Below the pieces are notes generated by a model. That model was not told the DNA's origin and did no database searches. It was given only the letters and a program-made list of their open reading frames with translations. From NCBI RefSeq assembly GCF_900112815.1, contig NZ_FOND01000003.1:248001-312000 (forward strand): a stretch of DNA of 64,000 nucleotides, written 5' to 3'. Both the position numbers and the translations under genes were made by a program. Positions 25,408 through 27,624 of this stretch are shown here, one piece after another; positions within the stretch are counted from its first letter, which is position 1; each line of letters starts with the position of its first letter. Origin of the DNA: Blastococcus tunisiensis. Lineage in GTDB: Bacteria; Actinomycetota; Actinomycetes; Mycobacteriales; Geodermatophilaceae.

Positions 25408-27624
25408 TTGGCCGACACCTCCCCAGGCGTCCCCACGCCGGGTGCCCACATGTCCCGTGAGGCCTCAGCGCAGGCCGCCGCCGCGGACGTCGCCCGCTCG
25501 GCAGCGTCCGCCGGATCCGCCCCGCCCCCGGTCCGGACCACCATCACCGTCCCCGAGTCCGTCTCGATGGTCGCCCTGCTGGGCTCGGCCGACGAGCTGC
25601 TCCGCCTGGTCGAGGCGGAGGTCGACGCCGACGTGCACGTGCGCGGCAACGAGATCGCCGTAACCGGGCAGCCGGCCGACAACGCGTTCGCCGTCCGTGT
25701 CTTCGACGAGCTGATCGCGCTCCTCGGCACCGGGCAGGGCCTGCGCCCGGACTCGGTGCGCCGGGTGATCGCGATGCTGAAGAGCGGCGGGTCCGAGCGC
25801 CCGGCCGACGTGCTGAGCCTCGACATCATCAGCCGCCGCGGCCGCACGATCCGGCCCAAGACGCTGAACCAGAAGCGCTACGTCGACGCGATCGACGAGC
25901 ACACGATCGTCTTCGGCATCGGCCCGGCCGGCACCGGCAAGACCTACCTGGCCATGGCCAAGGCCGTGCAGGCGCTGCAGACCAAGCAGGTCAACCGGAT
26001 CATCCTCACCCGCCCGGCGGTCGAGGCCGGCGAGCGGCTGGGCTACCTGCCCGGCACGCTGAGCGAGAAGATCGACCCCTACCTGAGGCCGCTGTACGAC
26101 GCGCTGCACGACATGGTCGACCCCGAGTCGATCCCGCGGCTGATGGCCTCCGGGACGATCGAGGTCGCACCGTTGGCCTACATGCGCGGCCGGGCTCAGC
26201 CGTACGACGCGAAGGTCCTCACGCCGAACGGGTTCATGCCGATCGGCTCGCTGCAGGTCGGTGATCTCGTGGTCGGCTCCGACGGCTTGCCGATCCCGGT
26301 GCTCGGCGTCTATCCGCAGGGCAAGAAGGTCGTCTACCGCGTGACCGCCCAGGACGGCGCTTCGACCCTGGCCTGCGGTGAGCACCTGTGGACGGTGACG
26401 ACGCCGGACGACCGCCGTCGCGGGACGACGCGCACCCTCGAGACGCAGGAGATGATCGGGAACCTGCGCTGGGGCGCTGGTGCTCATCGCTACGAACTCC
26501 CGGTGGTCGATGCGGTCGAATTCGAGCCCCAGGAGGTGCCGCTCGATCCCTACGCGCTCGGGTTGCTGCTGGGGGATGGCTGCCTCACCACCGCGACGAC
26601 GCCTTCCTTCTCCACGACCGATCCGGAGTTGGTCGTCGCCCTCGAGTCGGCGCTCGAGGGAATCGAGGTCACGCACAAGGGAGGCCCCGACTACGTGCTC
26701 CGGCACGTGGGCGGCGGCCGCGGTGGCCTGCGGATCGCCAACCCGGTCACCGAGACCGTCAGAGAACTGGGCCTCGCTGGGACGCGGTCGGCTACGAAGT
26801 TCGTTCCTTGGCTGTACTCGCACAACTCGGCGGAGGTCCGCGCTGCCCTCCTTCAAGGGCTGCTGGACTCGGACGGGGGCCCGGTCACACAGCGCGGACG
26901 AACCTGCCGGATCCAGTACACGACGACGTCCGAGCGGCTGCGGGACGACGTCATGTTCCTCGTCCGTTCCTTGGGCGGGACCGTCACCTCCCGCACCCGA
27001 GTGGCTACCGGTCGACGTCCGGGACTGGCACAGGGGCGGCCAGTCCACCACCGGCACGCGGCCCACATCCTCGAGATCCGGTTGCCGGCCGGGATCTCGC
27101 CGTTCCGGCTGGAGCGGAAGCGGCGTGCCTACGACGCTGCCGGCGGCGGGCGGCCGATGCGTTTCATCCACAGCATCGAGCCGGTGGGCGAGATGGACAC
27201 CATGTGCATCCAGGTCGCCGCGCAGGACTCCCTGTACGTGACCGACGACTTCCTCGTCACCCACAACACTCTCAATGACGCGTTCGTGATCCTCGACGAG
27301 GCGCAGAACACCACCGCCGAGCAGATGAAGATGTTCCTCACCCGGCTCGGCTTCGGCTCCAAGATCGTGGTCACCGGCGACGTGACCCAGGTCGACCTGC
27401 CCGGTGGTGCGCAGAGCGGCCTGAAGATCGTCCGCGAGATCCTGGACGGGCTCGAGGACGTGCACTTCGCGAACCTGACCAGCTCCGACGTCGTCCGCCA
27501 CCGCCTGGTCGGCAACATCGTCGACGCCTACGAGCGGTGGGACGCCACCCGGCAGCCCACCGCGACCCGACCGGGCGCCGGCGCCCCGGTCCGGACCTCC
27601 CGCCAACGCCGACCGGGGAGCTGA
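25408..27624 (+). CDS. phoH: PhoH-family ATPase interrupted by an intein
   Basis: The reading frame encodes 738 residues, of which 358 (residues 263-620) are an intein, leaving a spliced PhoH of 380 residues, close to the family length. Extein motifs are the Walker A GPAGTGKT at 172-179, the [15 protein letters not shown] segment, and the Walker B ILDEAQN with its first Asp at residue 630. PhoH proteins are RNA-directed ATPases; PhoH commonly precedes ybeY in an RNA-processing gene cluster, as here. The insertion lies between AYMRGR and TLNDAF, directly ahead of Walker B in the nucleotide site, so splicing is needed for function. TTG 25408 is the assumed start; ATG 25450 is the alternative. 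A TAGACT box at 25356-25361 may be its promoter. Confidence 0.93.
26194..27267 (+). mobile_element. Intein with LAGLIDADG homing endonuclease, class 3-type signature
   Basis: An in-frame 358-residue intein. It starts with Ala ([13 protein letters not shown]) rather than Cys or Ser, and ends LVTHN with Thr as the first extein residue. Block B carries H64 and W66 (CGEHLW) and block F has C338 (TMCIQV) where ordinary inteins have Asp. Trp at B:12, Cys at F:4 and Thr at +1 form the WCT triplet of class 3 inteins, which use the block F cysteine as first nucleophile. Two LAGLIDADG motifs are seen, [11 protein letters not shown] from residue 121 and [11 protein letters not shown] from residue 219, so the homing endonuclease looks intact. 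Codons inside use more A/T third bases than the flanking phoH, a sign of transfer. Confidence 0.9.

Follow-up and report, generated by a model that had tools for sequence, protein, structure and literature searches.

The window, a stretch of 64,000 nucleotides from Blastococcus tunisiensis, contains a phoH1 gene whose reading frame is interrupted by a long insert, followed on the same strand by ybeY and by a gene for a CNNM/CBS/CorC_HlyC protein. The features of the locus are:

25408-27624, + strand: PhoH1 reading frame with insert
25408-26193, + strand: PhoH1 N-extein with the P-loop, from a TTG start at 25408 (Pfam and reading of the sequence)
26194-27267, + strand: predicted class 3 intein, 358 aa (sequence reading and alignment of the same-site family)
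27268-27624, + strand: PhoH1 C-extein from Thr+1, with the Walker B motif VILDEAQ (Pfam and reading of the sequence)
27621-28160, + strand: gene for the endoribonuclease YbeY, overlapping the phoH stop (PF02130, E 4.4e-37)
28174-29529, + strand: gene for a CNNM/CBS/CorC_HlyC protein

Membership of the host in the PhoH ATPases was indicated by the PF02562 domain, matched by Pfam at E 6.4e-90 in two stretches that flank the insert, together with the P-loop and Walker B motifs, in agreement with a preliminary description of this DNA that had named PhoH as host and had placed the insert just ahead of Walker B. The insertion point, MRGR/TLNDAF (the slash marks the junction), lies directly before FVILDEAQ, and the exteins, when rejoined, reproduce the junction sequence of 29 of 30 intein-free relatives, which were the best-scoring PhoH loci of the family genome search; the remaining one is two residues different. 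The 380 residues predicted earlier for the spliced PhoH are supported by the TTG start at 25408, which was found in all 19 loci with a recognised N-terminus, and by an 18-base leader that is identical in the same 19 loci (15 distinct by intein sequence). A 366-residue product from the ATG at 25450 was rejected, as its Met is common to one of nine relatives listed and the TTG start and leader are found in 19 of 19 loci. The same genome encodes a second PhoH-family gene, which has no intein at the MRGR/T site.

Within the insert, the residues and domains on which its classification and predicted activities depend are:

26194-26196, + strand: Ala1, giving an intein without an N-terminal nucleophile
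26374-26391, + strand: block B, Cys61-Gly-Glu-His64-Leu-Trp66, in which Cys61 is block B position 7 and Trp66 is the W of the WCT triplet
26527-27123, + strand: LAGLIDADG homing endonuclease domain, spanning roughly residues 112-310 of the intein (limits by eye), with Asp128 and Asp227 kept (PF14528, E 5e-11; PI-SceI-like modelled fold)
27205-27207, + strand: block F Cys338, the predicted initiating nucleophile and C of WCT
27259-27267, + strand: block G Thr356-His357-Asn358, in which Thr356 is the T of WCT

A search for related loci yielded 121 distinct same-site PhoH inteins from 139 loci, two of them viral. His64, Trp66, Cys338 and Thr356 are invariant in 121 of 121, and these residues and the catalytic Asps are independent of the requirements for extraction; the loci were collected by intein similarity, and one scan pattern spans residues just after Cys338. 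Because the extraction accepted only inteins that are preceded by MRGR, have Pro as their third residue and finish with His-Asn, the constancy of His357, Asn358 and the site is partly by construction. Ala occupies position 1 in 118 copies and Ser in three; 120 copies have Thr at +1 and one has Pro. The Ser-starting copies (loci L108, L196 and L235) are also WCT inteins. In the copy with Pro at +1 (L022), normal splicing should be blocked unless the sequence contains an error. Named loci that were unmatched in the extraction were L228, L229, L246 (partial), L247, L248, L249, L253, L254, L255 and L257; L253, L254 and L257 are inteins in other genes.

Class 2 inteins start with Ala, and their Cys+1 attacks directly; the B. 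tunisiensis intein has Thr at +1 and, with Ala1, neither Cys nor Ser at its first position. That the junction was misplaced and the intein belongs to class 1, a case raised by the preliminary description itself, or to class 2 is extremely improbable: an Ala1 start is shared with class 2, and a profile search (Pfam, NCBIfam) found LAGLIDADG_3 and PhoH, its matches being to the endonuclease or to whole intein-bearing proteins and none to a class 3 model, but we rejected this reading because the intein-free relatives fix the junction, and all 121 copies have Trp in block B, Cys in block F and Thr in block G. In a passage of PMC5050341 the three WCT residues are assigned to B:12, F:4 and G:5, and one of PMC6195587 gives the residues of the M. 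smegmatis DnaB intein as Trp67, Cys118 and Thr137, the last preceding His138-Asn139. Because these papers put the T at G:5, before His-Asn, it falls here on Thr356, the third-last residue of the intein, with Trp66 at B:12 and Cys338 at F:4. The coordinates 26194-27267, the length of 358 aa, Ala1, His64, Trp66, Cys338 and Thr+1 had all been described correctly, and so had the class 3 signature, but Thr+1 had been taken as the third member of the triplet. Both threonines are present, and on the sequence evidence the assignment to class 3, an established though infrequent class, rather than to class 1 or 2 stands despite the wrong T residue.

The AlphaFold2 structure model (pLDDT 90.6, pTM 0.90) has the intein (HINT) fold, matching 1ef0, 6riy and 6bs8, and its best structural match is PI-SceI, at 18 percent identity to the B. 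tunisiensis intein. As modelled, the fold is that of an intein with a PI-SceI-like endonuclease. PI-SceI, the yeast VMA1 intein, likewise has two domains, an intein and a LAGLIDADG endonuclease, but is a class 1 intein. Class 3 DnaB inteins of M. chimaera and M. smegmatis also match the model. The former (DnaB-1, 6riy) has the intein fold in common with it; the latter (DnaBi1, 6bs8) shares the intein fold and, according to PMC6195587, the WCT triplet and Ala1, but differs in being without an endonuclease and in having Asp at block B position 7.

Class 3 inteins in PhoH are not new: examples from Mycobacterium are in print, and the 121 distinct copies found here occupy the same site. The M. fortuitum and M. 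xenopi inteins aligned in PMC6195587 have the same host protein, PhoH, and class 3 features, and a passage of PMC7360933 speaks of an M. smegmatis PhoH intein whose class it leaves unstated. Mycobacterial copies in our collection (e.g. L094, L096, L103 and L110) match the B. tunisiensis intein at 64-66 percent and occupy the MRGR/T site, as read in these relatives of the published strains. They differ in having Ser at block B position 7 (eight loci and one genome that groups with them), where B. tunisiensis has Cys. The novelty of the locus is thus modest, with class 3 PhoH inteins already published for Mycobacterium. In the literature searched (mostly titles and abstracts, with few subscription journals), no study of this B. 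tunisiensis intein was recognised and no paper on inteins in Blastococcus was found.

The intein is patchy in its distribution. Of 298 genomes sampled from the host's order, at least 42 carry this intein at the PhoH site, as determined by similarity search and then by reading at the site, a presence that is far beyond chance. PhoH1 is split in about 17 of the 112 genomes of the host family and in 5 of the 16 that belong to the host's genus; this count comes from split matches, with the sequence itself read for at least 6 of the 17. In a search of 396 genomes from across the phylum, 17 gave a match at E 1e-40, of which 15 were confirmed at the site, one is partial, and one is weaker and was off-site in the extraction. 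The best 80 of 411 relatives in a scan of named genomes are nearly all titled Actinomycetota, the nearest among these 80 being Blastococcus litoris at 91 percent; they also include Calidithermus (Deinococcota), a Myxococcales bin and a Melainabacteria bin, and the bins may be mislabelled.

Comparison of intein and extein phylogenies was consistent with both inheritance and transfer. The extein tree was built quickly and many of its forks are weak; in it, one change suffices for five of six named groups, and the Actinoplanes set requires two. In the intein tree, Pseudonocardiaceae appear in several places and Micromonosporaceae in two, the larger set with Promicromonosporaceae at 100/99. A single Micromonosporaceae clade, a group chosen after seeing the tree, was rejected by the intein data (p-AU 0.012); the extein data did not reject a grouping of Micromonospora with Promicromonosporaceae (p-AU 0.643), so a transfer between these two is not proved. 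In 382 of 4560 pairs the inteins are over 2 percentage points more alike than the exteins, and each of the 30 such pairs that were listed involves a distant host or the viral copy; Calidithermus and its best intein match, for example, are 70 percent identical in the intein and 58 percent in the extein. Intein and extein identities correlate overall (Spearman 0.47), and descent with the host is therefore also at work. These comparisons support probable horizontal movement between hosts on top of descent.

Seven viral stretches matched the junction pattern; three were chance matches, and the other four encode PhoH interrupted at the same site by a class 3-like intein. The four IMG/VR contigs (L231 and L233, with L228 and L229 partial) share the position in PhoH, with the junction MRGR/A, and the best of them is 53 percent identical to the B. 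tunisiensis intein (L115 and L231 are one contig). We read 61 of 80 viral class 3-like loci, 3 of these 61 being without the block B motif. One PhoH, on viral contig L122, has two class 3-like inteins at other positions, one at the P-loop (GSGK/ALTL) and one at LPG/PQPL that apparently starts with Pro. Of the class 3-like inteins read in viral contigs L115-L194, many, by impression rather than count, occur at an ATPase P-loop, with GK followed by Thr+1. In the GX15bay gene labelled PhoH, a PhoH motif was not found by eye in the intein-bearing frame. The B. tunisiensis genome itself encodes a second intein, in the replicative helicase DnaB (L257, about 655-1902), which by eye has class 3 features, lies at the P-loop (PGVGK/A ... 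THN/S) and has a LAGLIDADG match.

The endonuclease of the PhoH intein had been described as apparently intact, with two LAGLIDADG motifs that retain acidic residues, and this is borne out by the full-length domain, by a match to LAGLIDADG_3 (PF14528) over the cut-off, and by Asp128 in GLLLGDG and Asp227 in GLLDSDG. Both catalytic Asps are found in 114 of 121 copies, including that of B. tunisiensis, and at least one is lost in seven, three of which have large domain deletions; the splicing residues remain in these copies, suggesting that splicing and endonuclease functions are separable. Loci L250, L251 and L252 are same-site copies with a shrunken endonuclease, a lost catalytic Asp and all splicing residues kept. 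Purifying selection acts on the endonuclease: among pairs with a synonymous difference below 0.3, of which there are 47 (not independent), its dN/dS is about 0.20, well under 1, compared with 0.08 for the extein and with 0.07 and 0.09 for the two splicing parts, so that it is constrained, yet roughly threefold less than the splicing parts. Over 3562 pairs, also not independent, pN/pS is 0.426 for the endonuclease, 0.383 and 0.354 for the splicing parts and 0.330 for the extein; constraint looked alike in this larger set, which includes near-saturated pairs, and it is the 47 close pairs that show the endonuclease to be clearly less constrained.

These data also bear on whether the intein merely splices, its endonuclease no longer cutting and the element persisting by vertical descent. 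Such a history would fit the seven copies in which at least one of the two catalytic Asps is gone and, in three cases, the domain has clearly shrunk, as well as the weaker constraint on the endonuclease and the correlation of intein with extein identities, but we regard it as unlikely for this copy, which keeps both Asps and the whole domain, in a family where endonuclease dN/dS is well under 1 and occurrence within genera is patchy. An active endonuclease is the simplest reading of the sequences.

It therefore seems very probable that B. tunisiensis harbors a full-length class 3 intein in its housekeeping phoH1, and that this intein is probably still mobile. By the pathway of class 3 DnaB inteins, Cys338 would attack the Arg(-1)-Ala1 bond and take over the N-extein, which would then pass to Thr+1, and cyclisation of Asn358 would yield the 380-residue PhoH. 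Because the intein parts the P-loop from Walker B, the precursor presumably has no ATPase activity before excision. The LAGLIDADG domain, with Asp128 and Asp227, would cut intein-free phoH at the conserved MRGR/TLND codons, and the intein would be copied in.

Codon usage differs between intein and host gene, as had been noted (GC3 in 313 of 358 intein codons and 354 of 368 extein codons; Fisher p 1.7e-5), but 95 of 96 copies show the same lower GC3 relative to their extein, and because it is family-wide this bias is no mark of recent arrival. A recent foreign origin inferred from codon usage was rejected on the same count. The earlier interpretation holds for the class 3 signature, the PhoH host, the site and the full-length endonuclease, and gives way on the T of WCT; the intein is also not the first of its class in PhoH, and its codon usage, though indeed different, does not set it apart from its family.

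Of the 121 same-site copies, 102 have Cys at block B position 7, 15 have Ser and four have Thr, the 19 non-Cys copies including mycobacterial ones, one from Nonomuraea and a viral one. In the excerpt of PMC7891396 that treats this position, class 3 inteins are characterised with Gly or Asp, and Ser is also treated. Published excerpts further describe how, in the class 3 intein M. smegmatis DnaBi1, oxidation joins Cys48 to the catalytic Cys by a disulfide that was proposed to lock splicing, and place the position-7 side chain of AceL NrdHF beside the N-terminal scissile bond. The prevalence of Cys61 and the behavior of DnaBi1 make a Cys61-Cys338 pair a reasonable hypothesis, in which oxidation would form a disulfide that holds back PhoH maturation. 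We consider this regulation rather improbable: position 7 is Ser or Thr in mycobacterial and other copies, and Cys also occurs there in 22 of the 61 viral class 3-like loci read (of 80), mostly in other genes, so that Cys at this position could simply be a common variant that acts as Thr, Ser or Asp do. Redox gating of most PhoH class 3 inteins by a pair of thiols in the splicing centre, Cys61 next to the N-terminal scissile bond and the initiating Cys338, is similarly improbable.

If such a switch did operate, oxidation would keep PhoH as an inactive precursor, coupling an ATPase whose gene adjoins ybeY to how oxidised the cell is, and the Ser and Thr copies, mycobacterial ones among them, would be without it. 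The full-length intein of B. tunisiensis belongs to a family of 121 distinct copies at one site, among them viral ones and some whose endonuclease has decayed, and the Cys and the Ser or Thr copies at block B position 7 permit a comparison for redox gating.
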